This document shows positions 2,350 through 30,534 of a DNA stretch of 35,245 bases, piece after piece. Location of the stretch: the IMG/VR virus record IMGVR_UViG_3300012922_000011, positions 1 through 35,245 of that record. One strand, 5' to 3'. The notes below the pieces were generated by a model that saw only the letters and a program-made list of their open reading frames with translations, did not search any database and was not told where the DNA came from. Position 1 is the stretch's first letter. Each line of letters starts with the position of its first letter. The stretch is from a virus. The translations under genes were made by a program, and so were the position numbers.

Positions 2350-3366
2350 ATGAACAACGCACCCGCGTCCGTCTCCGACGGCCGCACGTTTTTCCACGGT
2401 AGCGCCGGGGTGTGGGCCGGACAGCAAATCCGTCTGGCCATGCGGCAGGGCCGCAAGATCACGCCCGCGGTCCTGCGCACCAACACCACCCTGCTCCGCG
2501 ACGAGTGGATCTTTTACGACGATCAAGTCGTCTCCGCCGCGCAAGTCCCGCTCCGCGGCGTCGCCGATCTCATCACGCGCGGCTTGGTGCGAACGATCCC
2601 GAACGGCATGGCGAAAACGCTGATCTCGTTCGAGACGGCGGGCGACATGACGCCCGCGATCGTGTCGATGGACGGCGTGACCCGCAGCGAACTCGACCGG
2701 GCCGAGTTCGGAGCGGGCTCGATGCCCCTCCCGATCACGCACAAAGACTTCAACGTCGACCTCCGCACGTTGCTCGCGTCGCGCGAGCGCGGCGAGCCGC
2801 TCGACACGATGCAGTCGCGCATCGCGGGCACCAAGTGCGGCCAGATGACGGAGTACATGCTGTTCAACGGCGGGCCGCAATTCCTCAACCTGCCGATCTA
2901 CGGCTATCTCACACACCCGAACCGCAACCTCGCGTCCTACGGCACCGGCGGCAATTGGGCCCAGGTCGCGAAGACGGGCGATCAGATCCTCGCCGATGCG
3001 CTCACGCTCCAGGCGGCGCTCGTCGCCGACGGCAAAGAGGGCCCGTACGCCCTGTACTACTCGACCGACTCGGGCAAGGGCATGTCGGCCGACTACAAGG
3101 CGACGTCGAGCGACACGGTGACGACCCGCCTGCTCAAGATCCCCGGCCTCCAAAGCATCCAGTCGGCGGCCCAGCTCCCGGCCGCGACCGTCGTCATGGT
3201 GCAGCTCACCGTCGACGTCGTCGAGTTGATCCGCGGCGAAGCCCTGACCACGGTGGAGTGGGAGATCGTCGGGCCCTTCCTCTCTGGATTCAAGGCGTTC
3301 CAGATTGAGGTCCCGCTCGTCAGGAGCGACACCGACGGCAAGTCGGGCATCGCCGTCATGCAATAG
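2350..3366 (+). CDS. Major capsid protein (HK97-fold, encapsulin-like group)
   Basis: A 338-residue protein with a strong SD (GAGAGGAGAGAATC before ATG). The middle contains the pattern of phage capsid proteins related to the encapsulin-like/linocin group: MPLPITHKDFNVDLRTL around residues 125-140, then SRERGEPLDTMQSR and a helix ending in TEYMLFNGG. The C-terminal third (VEWEIVGPFLSGFKAFQIEV) fits the last strands of such proteins. Length is normal for this group. It follows protease/scaffold and decoration-like genes and precedes connector genes, the standard head module order. It is flanked by an inverted pair of TTCTACTACAGT motifs, which is unusual. Confidence 0.8.
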   Translation: MNNAPASVSDGRTFFHGSAGVWAGQQIRLAMRQGRKITPAVLRTNTTLLRDEWIFYDDQVVSAAQVPLRGVADLITRGLVRTIPNGMAKTLISFETAGDMTPAIVSMDGVTRSELDRAEFGAGSMPLPITHKDFNVDLRTLLASRERGEPLDTMQSRIAGTKCGQMTEYMLFNGGPQFLNLPIYGYLTHPNRNLASYGTGGNWAQVAKTGDQILADALTLQAALVADGKEGPYALYYSTDSGKGMSADYKATSSDTVTTRLLKIPGLQSIQSAAQLPAATVVMVQLTVDVVELIRGEALTTVEWEIVGPFLSGFKAFQIEVPLVRSDTDGKSGIAVMQ

Positions 3367-3671: not shown

Positions 3672-4265
3672 GTGGCGGTCACCCTCAACGCGACGCCGGG
3701 CGATCCGGACGCGAATTCGTACGAGACGGTCGAGGAGTTCAAAGACTTTCTCGGCACGAAGGCGCACACGGCCAACGTCCCGACCGACGATGCGCAACTG
3801 GCGGCGCTCCTCATCCAGGGCACGCGCGTGATCGAGAACGCGCTCGCAGGCCCGGCGGATGTGGAGCGCGCGCGCGCGCTCGGCTACGCCGTCGTGTACG
3901 GGTGGACCGGCACCTCGACGACCGACGAACAGGCGCTCGCGTGGCCGATGCGCGACATGCTCGACGCACGCGGCCGCGCGATCCCTGACGACGTCGTGCC
4001 GCAGGGCGTGAAAGACGCGCTCAGCGAGACGGCGTACACGCTGATCGGCACCGACCTCGACGCGAACACGAGCGCGACCACGCCGCTCAAGTCGCTCACC
4101 GCGGGGCCGGTGCGGATCGAGTACGGGACGAAGACGGAGAGCGCCGCGGGCGCGACGCTCCCGCCGACGCCGATCCCCGACGCGGCCCTCCGCGCGCTGG
4201 TGCCGAGTTGGTACCTGACGGTCGTCCCGACGGGCGCAACCACGATCGATTTCGAGGTGTTCTGA
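3672..4265 (+). CDS. Head-tail connector protein (DnaT-like family)
   Basis: A 197-residue protein starting with GTG three bases after the previous stop. The N-terminal pattern DANSYETVEEFKDFL, the helix AALLIQGTRVIENAL, then QALAWPMRDMLDARGRAIPDD, VPQGVKDALSETAY and C-terminal RALVPSWYL match the family annotated as putative DnaT-like ssDNA-binding proteins in phages. In that setting the family acts as a head-completion or neck connector protein rather than a DNA-replication factor. The location right after the capsid gene supports the connector role. The stop overlaps the next ATG (TGATG). Confidence 0.75.
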   Translation: MAVTLNATPGDPDANSYETVEEFKDFLGTKAHTANVPTDDAQLAALLIQGTRVIENALAGPADVERARALGYAVVYGWTGTSTTDEQALAWPMRDMLDARGRAIPDDVVPQGVKDALSETAYTLIGTDLDANTSATTPLKSLTAGPVRIEYGTKTESAAGATLPPTPIPDAALRALVPSWYLTVVPTGATTIDFEVF

Positions 4266-25980: not shown

Positions 25981-26496
25981 ATGGCAACCGCAGCGACGCG
26001 TGAGATCCCCGACCTCCGCGCGGCCTCGCTCAAACCGGATCGGTTGACGCTCGTAAGCATGGCGACCCGGCCGGGCATCAACCGATTTTGGATGACGCTC
26101 GAATACGATCACTTTCCCCCGCGCACGCCGCTCAACGACGAATACGATCTCACGATGCTCGCGTGGCCCGACTCTGGCATCCTCTGGACGATCGTGATCA
26201 TCCCGCTGGCGTATCGGCGCGTCGCCGCCGAGGTCGCCGCAGCCGCCGGGATGCGCCTCGCTAACGGCGTACCGACGCTGATGTCGCACCCGGCGAACCG
26301 TCACGTCGTCGCGCTCGGCGCGGTGCGCGTGCCTCCGCCGGACGCCTTTGACCGCTTCCCGCTCGATCACGATCGCGTGTTCACGATGGAGAACGACATG
26401 AACAGCCCCGTCTATCTGGCGGGCGGCGACGCGTTCATCCGCGCCGAAGAACTCCGCTGGATCGAGGCGTTCCGTAAGGCGCGCGGCCTCACATAG
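25981..26496 (+). CDS. Hypothetical protein ending the rightward run
   Basis: A 171-residue soluble protein with SD GGCGAGGAG. Segments include RFWMTLEYDHFPPRTPLND, DSGILWTIVIIPLAYRRVAA and VFTMENDMNSPVYLAG; the end is helical (RAEELRWIEAFRKARG). Its 3' end overlaps the leftward replication gene by eight bases, so the operons converge here. No family recognised. Confidence 0.6.
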   Translation: MATAATREIPDLRAASLKPDRLTLVSMATRPGINRFWMTLEYDHFPPRTPLNDEYDLTMLAWPDSGILWTIVIIPLAYRRVAAEVAAAAGMRLANGVPTLMSHPANRHVVALGAVRVPPPDAFDRFPLDHDRVFTMENDMNSPVYLAGGDAFIRAEELRWIEAFRKARGLT

Positions 26497-27604
26497 TCAC
26501 CACCGGCAACGCGAAGTACCCCCGGACGGCGCGCGTGAGCCCGGCGGCCTCGGCGGACCGATACGCCCCCTCCGGCATCGCCCACCGGAACGCCTGGAGT
26601 TCGGCGTCGACCTCGGCGCGCAGGGTCGCGATCGGGGCGGCGGCGTGCGCCGTGGCGACGAGCGCGGCATCGAGCGCGGCGAGTTGGTCCCGGACGTCGG
26701 CGTCACTGCGCAGTCGGGTGAGGTCGTCGGCCAGGGCGTGCAAATGCGCGCAGAGGGGCGGCGGGAGGGCGGGGCGCGCCGGGTCGAGTCGGGCGACGAC
26801 GGCGGCGCGCAGACGGGTGAGGTGGCCGGGGAGCGGATCCGGCCGAGTGGGGACCGCCACCGGCGGCGGCGGCGGTTGCTGGCGGGCGACGAGGATCCCG
26901 GCATTGGCGGCGAACAGCGCGAACGGGTGCCCGCGGTCGGCGTAGTACCCGTGGCTCTCCACATAGGCGGCGACGGCGGCGCACAACCGGTCGAGCGGCA
27001 GGAACCCGACGAGGTCGGCCGCTTTCGCGCGATCGCGGGCGGTGACGTCGGCGGGCGTGTGATAGCGGGCGCTCCACGCGGTGCGGTAACAGTCGAGCAG
27101 CGCGGTGCTCTCACTCTGGATCGGATCTTGTACATCTACAGAGCGCCCGGAATGTGCACCCTTCGCTAGCCCGAAGTGCACCCTTTCCGTATGCGAAAGT
27201 GCATCCTTCTGTGCACCCTTTCCGGGCACCACCTCCCCTCCTGAAAGTGCACCCTTTCGCGCGGTCGTCGCCGTGCGGAACCCGGCGGCGGCGACAGCGG
27301 TCGGGCTGAGCCCGGCCAGCGCGGCGGGGACGAGGCGGTACACACGGGCATGTCCGCGGCCTCTGGCGGGAGCCGCGACCACGAGCACCCCGAAGCGTTC
27401 GAGGACGCGGAGCTGATACTGGACGATCCGGACCCCGAGGCGGCGGCCGCCGGGGTACGTGTGCGCCACGAGCGCGGCGACGGTCGGCGGATGATGGAAC
27501 GTCCCGTCGTCGTCCGCCCAGGCCGCGAGCGCGCCGAGTACGCCGCGCTGGAGCGCGTGCGGGATCGTCCGCGCCCACACCGATCGCACAAGCGCGGCGC
27601 TCAT
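26489..27604 (-). CDS. Replication initiator / replisome organiser-like protein
   Basis: A 371-residue protein starting at ATG 27604 with GAGG five bases upstream. Residues ~1-100 look like a winged helix-turn-helix of the type in phage replication proteins (LVRSVWARTIPHALQRGVLG, HHPPTVAALVAHTYPGGRRL, LRVLERFGVLVV). Residues ~160-250 have LLDCYRTAWSARYHTPADV and ESHGYYADRGHPFALFAANA, as in lambda O-like or primosomal phage proteins. The last 100 residues are helical. Between these domains (residues ~115-150) the DNA carries five direct repeats and encodes four K-(G/D)-A copies. The start is coupled to a 22-codon upstream ORF (ATGA). Confidence 0.7.
   Translation of the reverse strand: MSAALVRSVWARTIPHALQRGVLGALAAWADDDGTFHHPPTVAALVAHTYPGGRRLGVRIVQYQLRVLERFGVLVVAAPARGRGHARVYRLVPAALAGLSPTAVAAAGFRTATTARKGALSGGEVVPGKGAQKDALSHTERVHFGLAKGAHSGRSVDVQDPIQSESTALLDCYRTAWSARYHTPADVTARDRAKAADLVGFLPLDRLCAAVAAYVESHGYYADRGHPFALFAANAGILVARQQPPPPPVAVPTRPDPLPGHLTRLRAAVVARLDPARPALPPPLCAHLHALADDLTRLRSDADVRDQLAALDAALVATAHAAAPIATLRAEVDAELQAFRWAMPEGAYRSAEAAGLTRAVRGYFALPVVTM
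27154..27259 (-). repeat. Five iteron-like repeats: candidate replication origin
   Basis: Plus-strand copies of GTGCACCCTTTC start at 27154 (ends CTTCG), 27176, 27199 (GTGCATCCTTCT), 27211 and 27247; three are essentially exact. Start-to-start distances are 22, 23, 12 and 36 bases, close to multiples of 11-12. Four copies share one reading phase of the host gene and one (27176) is in another phase, so the DNA sequence, not the peptide, is what repeats. A relatively AT-rich stretch lies next to them at ~27105-27143. The layout is that of the lambda origin inside gene O. Confidence 0.7.
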
Positions 27605-27669
27605 CGCCGCCTCGTCGAGGTCTGAGAATTCGCCGCGAAAGTGGAGAATTGTGCGCCCTCGTACCGCAT
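27601..27669 (-). CDS. 22-codon leader ORF coupled to the replication gene
   Basis: ATG at 27669 follows TTTTTTTAGGAG with nine bases spacing, the best SD in the vicinity. The ORF encodes MRYEGAQFSTF... and ends TSTRRR. Its TGA overlaps the replication gene ATG (ATGA), so ribosomes terminating here could re-initiate. It may be a leader peptide that sets the translation level of the initiator. Confidence 0.45.
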   Translation of the reverse strand: MRYEGAQFSTFAANSQTSTRRR

Positions 27670-27714
27670 AAGAATCCGCTCCTAAAAAAAGCGGTGCGGC
27701 CGGGCTGAATCGGC

Positions 27715-27744
27715 TTGCATTCACAGGCGAAGGCTCTGTACACT
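27715..27744 (+). promoter_or_regulatory. Possible rightward promoter in replication leader
   Basis: TTGCAT (27715-27720), an 18-base spacer and TACACT (27739-27744). It would transcribe away from the replication gene, antisense to the leader of the leftward transcript, with no gene downstream on this strand. If real it could make a regulatory antisense RNA. Confidence 0.35.
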
Positions 27745-27896
27745 TTCGCCCGGCCCGCACTGCGGGATCCTCCCGAACGCACAGCCGCCGTTCTGTCGGC
27801 AACGCTGATCGCGTCGGGTCAAGCACGGGTCGCTGGGAAAAACCGGGAAAAGTTTCGCGCAGCGACGCCGTCGAAAAATCCGCACCGAATGTCCTC

Positions 27897-27935: not shown

Positions 27936-28001
27936 TCAGACGCTCACCTCATCACACCCTCCGAAAAAAAAGGCGAACGAGCCTGTTCGTGCCGCACTTT
28001 A

Positions 28002-28023
28002 CGACAGATCTATAGCACTGTCG
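28002..28023 (-). promoter_or_regulatory. Leftward extended -10 promoter inside an inverted repeat
   Basis: On the minus strand TGC-TATAGA (28017 to 28009) is an extended -10 element with no strong -35. It lies exactly between the arms CGACAG (28002-28007) and CTGTCG (28018-28023), an operator-like arrangement where a bound repressor would block the -10. It would transcribe the replication leader and gene. Confidence 0.5.
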
Positions 28024-28086
28024 AGGGGAACTCATCGAGCCCAGACGTTTTCATGCCACGCACCGCTCCCTTGTGGCCGCGGGCAC

Positions 28087-29083: not shown

Positions 29084-29108
29084 CGATGTAAATCACCGCG
29101 CGCGTGTC

Positions 29109-29136
29109 TCGATACGGCGCACGATTATGCTACATT
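29109..29136 (+). promoter_or_regulatory. Rightward early promoter 1 (extended -10)
   Basis: TCGATA (29109-29114), a 16-base spacer and the extended -10 TGC-TACATT (29128-29136). The preceding ATTATGC is shared with the promoter at 34738 and with the leftward repressor promoter on its opposite strand. Confidence 0.55.
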
Positions 29137-29141
29137 GGGGC

Positions 29142-29170
29142 TTGCGGAGAGCGCACAATTCGCCTACACT
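29142..29170 (+). promoter_or_regulatory. Rightward early promoter 2
   Basis: TTGCGG (29142-29147), an ideal 17-base spacer and TACACT (29165-29170). It would give a ~160-base leader before the ATPase gene. Together with the overlapping upstream promoter it makes the start of the early operon. Confidence 0.5.
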
Positions 29171-29337
29171 GCGTTCACCGGGACCGCACCGGGAGACACC
29201 CCGACGCGGCCCCTCACCGACCCGGCGCACGAGTGGAGGCTCGCGCGTCAAAGCGGCTGGTCGGCAGTCTATCAAACGCCCCCCGCGATCCCGGCCGGGA
29301 TCGGCGGTCCTCCGGGCACCGTCAGGGAGTGACCGCC

Positions 29338-30534
29338 ATGGGATTGCTACAAGAGGCCATCATCGAGCAAGCCGCCGCGAAGATCGGGATCTTCGGCCCG
29401 CAGGGATCGGGCAAATCGCTCACCGCGTTCCTGATCCTCGTCGGGCTCTCGAAAGTGTTCCACAACAACGCCCCGATCGCGATGATGGACACCGAGAACG
29501 GCAGCGACTACCTCGTCGAGATCGCGAAAGCCGAGGGCGTGCCGTTCAAACGGTTCAAGAGTCGCGCGTTCAAAGACATGCGCACCGGGCTCACCGAGGC
29601 CGAGGAGGCCGGGTGCTGCGGCTATCTGGTCGACAGCTACACGCACCCGTGGACCGAGGTCAACGAGGCGCTTCGCAAAAAAAAGGGCGTCAAGAAACTT
29701 CAGATGCACCACCTCGACGAACTGAAAACCGTCTGGCGCACGTGGACGGACATGATGCTGAACAGCAACCTGCACGTGATCGTCTCGGGGCGACTCGGCT
29801 ACGTGTGGGACAAAGAGGAGGACGAGGAGGGGATGAAAACCGAACTCGTGAAGCTCGGGACCAAAATGAAATCCGAGAACGAGGCCGGGTACGAACCGTC
29901 GCTCCTCGTCGAACTCGAAGGGATCCAGGACGACGGCGCGCGCCGTCACAAGTCGCGGACCAAGCGCGGCACGATCTCGCACCATGCCTACGTGCTCAAG
30001 GATCGCTGGCGCGATCTGAACGGCCGTACGTTCACGTGGCGCGACCTCAACGACTACGAGGCGGGCGACTACGAGAAAGTGTTCAAGGTGTTCCGTCCGC
30101 ACTTCGATCACCTCGTCATCGGACAGAACGTGCAGCAGCGCGGCATCAACACCACGCGCACGAGCGAGAGCCTGTTCGTCGGCGGCGACACGCCGTACGG
30201 GGAGCGCATGCGCCGCGTGACGATCGCGCTCGAAGAAATCCAGGGGCTCCTCGTCGACCTCTGGCCGAGCCAGGACGCCGTCGCCAAGGATCTCAAGCGC
30301 ACGATCATCCGGACCGTGTTCGGGACGCGGAGCTGGACGAAAGTCTCGAATATGTCGATCGAGACGCTCGACGACGGGCTCGCGTCGCTCCGCCGGTTCG
30401 AGGCGGGCGTGACGCAAGGCGGCCAGCAGGCGGCGCTCACCGACCCGACGGTCGCCGCGTCGTACGTCGAGATGTGTGCGGCGCAGGTCGCCGCGCAGAA
30501 GGCCGAGGCTGAGAACACGATCGGAGTGCTATGA
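29338..30534 (+). CDS. P-loop ATPase, AAA_24/Sak4-like
   Basis: A 398-residue protein; ATG with AGGGAG eight bases upstream. Walker A is FGPQGSGKS near residue 18. A Walker-B-like strand GYLVDSY follows at ~95-101, and the block VIVSGRLGYVWDKEEDEEG is typical of the phage AAA_24 P-loop family, which includes Sak4-type RecA-like recombination proteins. The C-terminal ~200 residues are helical and less conserved. As first gene of the early operon it may promote DNA annealing or assist replication; family placement is fair, exact role uncertain. No SSB or exonuclease is recognisable nearby. Confidence 0.7.
   Translation: MGLLQEAIIEQAAAKIGIFGPQGSGKSLTAFLILVGLSKVFHNNAPIAMMDTENGSDYLVEIAKAEGVPFKRFKSRAFKDMRTGLTEAEEAGCCGYLVDSYTHPWTEVNEALRKKKGVKKLQMHHLDELKTVWRTWTDMMLNSNLHVIVSGRLGYVWDKEEDEEGMKTELVKLGTKMKSENEAGYEPSLLVELEGIQDDGARRHKSRTKRGTISHHAYVLKDRWRDLNGRTFTWRDLNDYEAGDYEKVFKVFRPHFDHLVIGQNVQQRGINTTRTSESLFVGGDTPYGERMRRVTIALEEIQGLLVDLWPSQDAVAKDLKRTIIRTVFGTRSWTKVSNMSIETLDDGLASLRRFEAGVTQGGQQAALTDPTVAASYVEMCAAQVAAQKAEAENTIGVL

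Follow-up and report, generated by a model that had tools for sequence, protein, structure and literature searches.

An iteron array in the linker codons of a phage replication-initiator gene and its probable role as a replication origin

The window (the whole stretch of DNA analysed, a virus record of 35,245 bases) carries recognizable tailed-phage genes, among them a head protein at 2350–3366 and a protein at 3672–4265 that PHROG matches to head–tail adaptor Ad1 and Pfam to DnaT_2. The position of the latter among head genes favours an adaptor over a replication gene, and for this reason it should not be counted as one. A replication-initiator (rep) gene of 371 codons lies on the minus strand at 26489–27604, its product having N-terminal homology to HTH_36 and PHROG 'replication initiation' proteins. 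We preferred the ATG at 27604 to a GTG at 27826 as its start, although the open frame reaches the GTG, because homologues begin at the ATG. An AAA_24 protein (29104–30534; phrog_1366, unknown function) adjoins the rep region on the strand opposite to the rep gene, and the viral contigs searched contained no relatives of this neighbour. GC skew has no clean switch across the window and tracks gene orientation.

The rep product begins with a predicted winged helix-turn-helix (wHTH; residues 1–97, extending to about 100; 27314–27604, minus strand), modelled by AlphaFold2 with pLDDT of 80–94 in blocks. A fold search of the PDB matches model residues 3–100 to wHTH proteins at Z 7–10 (Fur, MarR and LexA-type folds), in agreement with the winged-HTH N terminus proposed in a first-pass annotation of this DNA. 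These matches are generic, and generic wHTH proteins were all that the fold search of solved structures returned; searching the same structures by sequence gave one irrelevant match (E 0.64). Alignment and model secondary structure place a helix at residues 58–70 (27395–27433, minus strand), which contains R59 and Q62, invariant in alignment with relatives, and the nearly invariant Y63. Its position would make it the recognition helix, with a likely role in DNA recognition. A linker predicted to be disordered follows (residues 116–155; 27140–27259, minus strand; pLDDT mostly below 50, segments 118–137 and 141–155), and then a helical C-terminal part (residues 165–371 by model secondary structure; 26492–27112, minus strand), which has no family match and presumably serves in helicase or loader recruitment.

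Pfam yielded no match for the window protein, the HTH_36 cut-off not being reached, and PHROG gave sub-threshold matches only (E 0.083 and 0.35), both to replication-initiation families; the lambda O-like C-terminal motifs that had been suggested are not sustained by matches at this level. Residues 1–115 are homologous to an iteron-bearing family of phage proteins (best match 36% identity over 115 residues, E 1e-14; about 210 sequences), and full-length comparison likewise relates the protein to iteron-bearing initiators. Among phage replication initiators the gene product counts as a divergent relative.

The linker codons contain an entire array of five sites, starting at 27154, 27176, 27199, 27211 and 27247. 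Three are exact copies of GTGCACCCTTTC and two are degenerate, with 2 mismatches to this 12-mer at 27154 and 3 at 27199 (GTGCATCCTTCT); the five repeat copies of the first-pass annotation therefore stand as sites, only three of them exact, and its spacings of 22, 23, 12 and 36 are recovered from the site starts. The coding-strand unit is AAAGGGTGCAC, present on the minus strand as iteron 1 (27247–27257) and iteron 2 (27211–27221), both in codon phase 2 (KGA), and as iteron 4 (27176–27186) in codon phase 1 (RVH). Iteron 3 (27199–27209, minus strand, phase 2, KDA) is a degenerate GAAGGATGCAC with 2 mismatches to AAAGGGTGCAC, and iteron 5 (27154–27164, minus strand, phase 2, KGA) is GAAGGGTGCAC, with 1 mismatch. 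Four copies share one phase, from which the copy at 27176 departs, as had been noted. The linker thus has four GGGTGCA and one GGATGCA in the sense of the gene, and the common core of the five sites is GTGCA[CT]CCT, or AGG[AG]TGCAC on the coding strand. TTTC-type dyad flanks occur at only two copies (27247 and 27199). An AT-rich patch (27100–27249, 40–44% AT, no strand assigned) covers and adjoins the array and is a candidate unwinding region; AT content over the array is 40–46%, against some 20–28% in most of the remaining gene. No repeated unwinding motif accompanies this enrichment in the window gene.

That these are chance repeats is scarcely credible: a loose pattern tolerating two mismatches is expected 1.66 times by chance in the window, but the strict GTGCA[CT]CCT has just five occurrences in the window, both strands considered, and a span of 102 bp holds them all. 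The array might instead be a repeated peptide (KGA/KGAH) or the drift of a low-complexity linker, without selection on DNA, and four of the five copies do lie in one frame of a linker predicted to be disordered. The codons used make this reading extremely improbable. Alanine is encoded by GCA at all four alanines of the sites and at 0 of the other 73 in the gene, and glycine by GGT at 3 of 3 within sites and 0 of 24 elsewhere; by hand calculation, four GCA codons placed among 77 alanines would all land on the four within sites by chance once in 1.35 million. Synonymous-codon shuffles of the gene (n = 2,000), which keep the encoded protein unchanged, gave a maximum of one AGGRTGCAC against the five observed. 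Together with the use of more than one frame in 54 of 58 relatives, described below, these results bear out the suggestion that selection acts on the DNA.

The iteron-bearing family of phage proteins first surfaced through a blind motif search. A motif scan for the array pattern found at least 119 loci against 43 for a reversed control, with mixed-phase arrays in long frames at 56 of the 119 among the array-pattern matches listed and at 8 of the 43 control loci. Such a scan is only suggestive on its own; the real test comes from a set selected by peptide. Because the window protein is without close relatives in the phages, viral contigs or plasmids searched, a test of repeat persistence has to rely on more distant ones. 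Homologues were fetched by two N-terminal peptide patterns, which are independent of linker and repeats and so avoid circularity, giving 58 non-redundant genes.

Each of the 58 has GGGTGCA three or more times within the gene, and the motif is rare outside it (0 to 2 per 5-kb locus, counting both strands). In 54 of them the copies are spread over two or more codon phases. The first-pass annotation had proposed aligning homologues to see whether the repeats are kept as the encoded residues change; they are, and the 58 relatives present the opposite of the pattern that it had named as contrary evidence, amino acids kept with repeats lost. Its remark that the repeat was unlike any familiar iteron is overturned, since the sequence matches the iteron of a widespread initiator family. 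Across 263 GGGTGCA sites in the relatives, 87 steps measure 22 bp and 62 measure 21 bp, and AAA flanks are found at 94–98% of sites, though they were absent from the query. In Pseudomonas phages JBD68 and vB_Pae_U2, GGGGTGCAA recurs at 22-bp intervals, which rotates the frame through codon phases 0, 1, 2 and 0. The peptides KGA, KGC and RVQ/RVH are accordingly three frame readings of one DNA word. Of 9 relatives tested, 8 match Pfam HTH_36 above its cut-off; the relatives belong to PHROG 678, 1032, 270 and 391 ('replication initiation' or 'replication initiation O-like'), and in vB_Pae_U2 the genes next after the relative's gene carry the annotations DnaC-like helicase loader and DnaB-like helicase.

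The relatives have further features around the array. In 57 of the 58 genes, TGCACC in inverted orientation is found no more than 16 nt from the first or last iteron; past the last iteron, AT content is higher by about 0.15. A second array, of AACC[AG]TCA, follows the iterons in 51 of 58 (for example L171, L182, L215 and L228), 20–100 nt past the last one and usually in 2–4 copies placed 11 or 10 bp apart; its density is 23 per kb against 0.05 per kb elsewhere. Among its copies every codon phase is represented, and none of the 45 genes with at least two of them keeps to a single phase; the recurrent 'EPS..KEPS' peptides of the relatives arise because this array encodes them. Iterons, a terminal inverted site and an AT-rich, helically phased array would together be the parts of an origin that includes an unwinding element.

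The core clade of these relatives (L171–L287, including Bordetella phage vB_BbrS_PHB09 and Pseudomonas phage JBD68) comprises initiators of proteobacterial phages assigned to HTH_36 and PHROG 678-1032-270-391. It has in common with the window gene a wHTH, the R..QY helix, a disordered linker, GGGTGCA direct repeats, mixed phases and an AT-rich site. The core unit is AAAGGGTGCA[A/G], mostly in 21–22 bp steps, whereas the window has C after GGGTGCA and steps of 22, 23, 12 and 36; the window gene is without the inverted TGCACC at the array end and without the AACC[AG]TCA array, both of which the core clade has. The window protein also falls below the Pfam HTH_36 cut-off, unlike most relatives tested, and its C terminus differs from theirs. 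We therefore regard the window gene as a divergent relative and not as a member of the core AAAGGGTGCA/HTH_36 clade, and its homology and array suggest that it uses the same mechanism as the relatives. The base after GGGTGCA is A or G in the TRQS..VQYQL clade and C in the window and in L068, L073 and L090; a residue-to-base code for this position was considered and dropped, there being too few independent cases.

An origin inside an initiator gene is an established layout. Lambda ori lies inside gene O, with 19-bp near-perfect inverted-repeat iterons that bind O dimers and with an AT-rich tract (PMC7466680, PMC5043065), and SPP1 oriL lies inside gene 38, with direct repeats and a DNA unwinding element (PMC6316719). 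The lambda and Stx-phage origins and the window all have mid-gene iterons between a DNA-binding N terminus and the C terminus, an AT-rich neighbour and four to six copies. The lambda iteron is, however, a 19-bp inverted repeat, and the window unit a 10–11 bp direct repeat of other sequence (AAAGGGTGCAC); we do not class the window array as lambda O iterons proper. The likeness to lambda ori drawn in the first-pass annotation accordingly concerns layout and not established protein homology. SPP1 gene 38 resembles our reading of the window, with an origin-binding protein that binds direct repeats in its own gene and an AT-rich unwinding element, for which the window has a candidate. SPP1 also has a second origin, oriR, and a helicase loader and DnaB-type helicase, whereas neither a DnaB nor a helicase-loader gene was recognized among the window proteins.

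We propose, with a probability of roughly 0.82, that the array comprises iterons for the protein of its own gene and forms the core of the phage replication origin, in the style of lambda and SPP1. This reading follows from the relatedness of the protein to initiators, and from relatives with loader and helicase neighbours and an AT-rich array; the intragenic origin put forward as a candidate by the first-pass annotation is in this way supported by homology to initiators and by conservation at the DNA level. The wHTH, through R59, Q62 and Y63 of the putative recognition helix, would bind AAAGGGTGCAC; several protomers would wrap the DNA, the adjoining AT-rich stretch would melt, and the C-terminal domain would recruit a host or phage helicase and loader. 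Initiator and origin would travel together, because the site lies inside the gene of its own reader.

The same protein could bind the array as an autoregulatory operator or copy-control (handcuffing) site while replication starts elsewhere. Self-regulation is common among initiators, and the array lies near the start of its own gene, upstream of which are other AT-rich stretches (27600–27750 and 27950–28050). We nonetheless consider this unlikely: the array is about 350 bp inside the gene, away from the promoter, and in the relatives the array borders on an AT-rich tract containing another, helically phased array, which is origin-like. A packaging or partition site is very unlikely. Small-terminase genes do have AAAR[GT]GTGCACMCAAA-like arrays directly after the HTH, and for this reason an array in that position is not by itself proof of an origin; what it would mark is a binding site encoded by the binding protein's own gene, which need not be an origin. 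Against packaging, the window gene is akin to replication initiators rather than small terminases, whose motif is different, with A-rich flanks and GTGCACMC; against partition, no parA- or parB-like gene was recognized among the proteins searched. An origin core bound by its own initiator remains our preferred reading of the array.

The small-terminase arrays (L392–L470 and L322–L391; for example L398, L401 and L461) are centred on GTGCAC and run in 20–23 bp steps with mixed codon phases, encoding the peptides KGAHK, KRVHTK and SVHTK. Small-terminase genes picked by an HTH peptide have at least one GGGTGCA after the HTH in 30 of 38 non-redundant cases, at 8.8 per kb there against 0.018 elsewhere. 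Identity of this motif with the initiator iteron was rejected, as an unbiased set gives AAAR[GT]GTGCACMCAAA with other flanks. These arrays are candidate packaging-site (pac/cos) repeats, and the parallel layout, built on another motif, hints at a strategy general among phages, with the target of a DNA-binding protein written into the codons of that protein's own linker.

In the literature searched, work on intragenic phage origins covers lambda and Stx phages, SPP1 and mycobacterial RepA phages, with the GGGTGCA-type iteron not among them. We found no description of this iteron with the AACC[AG]TCA array in the literature searched, in which subscription journals were thinly covered, and this is not proof of novelty. 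Our tentative proposal, at a little under even odds, is that AAAGGGTGCA iterons (21–22 bp) and a phased AACC[AG]TCA unwinding array, set in the linker after the DNA-binding domain and conserved at the DNA level, constitute a portable origin signature in very many phages. If the origin reading is right, sequence alone would reveal the origins of a large set of cultured and uncultured tailed phages, in detail as fine as the single iteron and, for the core clade, the unwinding tract as well. One DNA segment would then be under two codes, with the KGA/KGC/RVQ and EPS..KEPS peptides as by-products of DNA sites, and the reading of an iteron by a wHTH would gain a tractable system (R..QY against AAAGGGTGCA, where the following base varies naturally).

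HTH_36 genes taken from 200 genomes mostly lack GGGTGCA outside the R..QY clade and often have other linker repeats. Those of L293, L298, L305, L306 and L310, from other genomes, encode different linker peptide repeats (for example ESPAPGG, SPEIGT and VGTKRS) and are perhaps other iteron families. The reversed-control loci L163, L144 and L153 have regular mixed-phase spacing in long frames (22,22; 32,32; 29,29) and are possibly unrelated iterons. A contig titled Bacillus subtilis SK7B5 (L286) carries a rep gene of Stenotrophomonas/Burkholderiales-phage type, a possible contamination. In L351 and L363, AAGGGTGCAC forms an alternating 33/42-nt tandem array within a long frame, in a single phase in L351, and looks like an ordinary tandem repeat.
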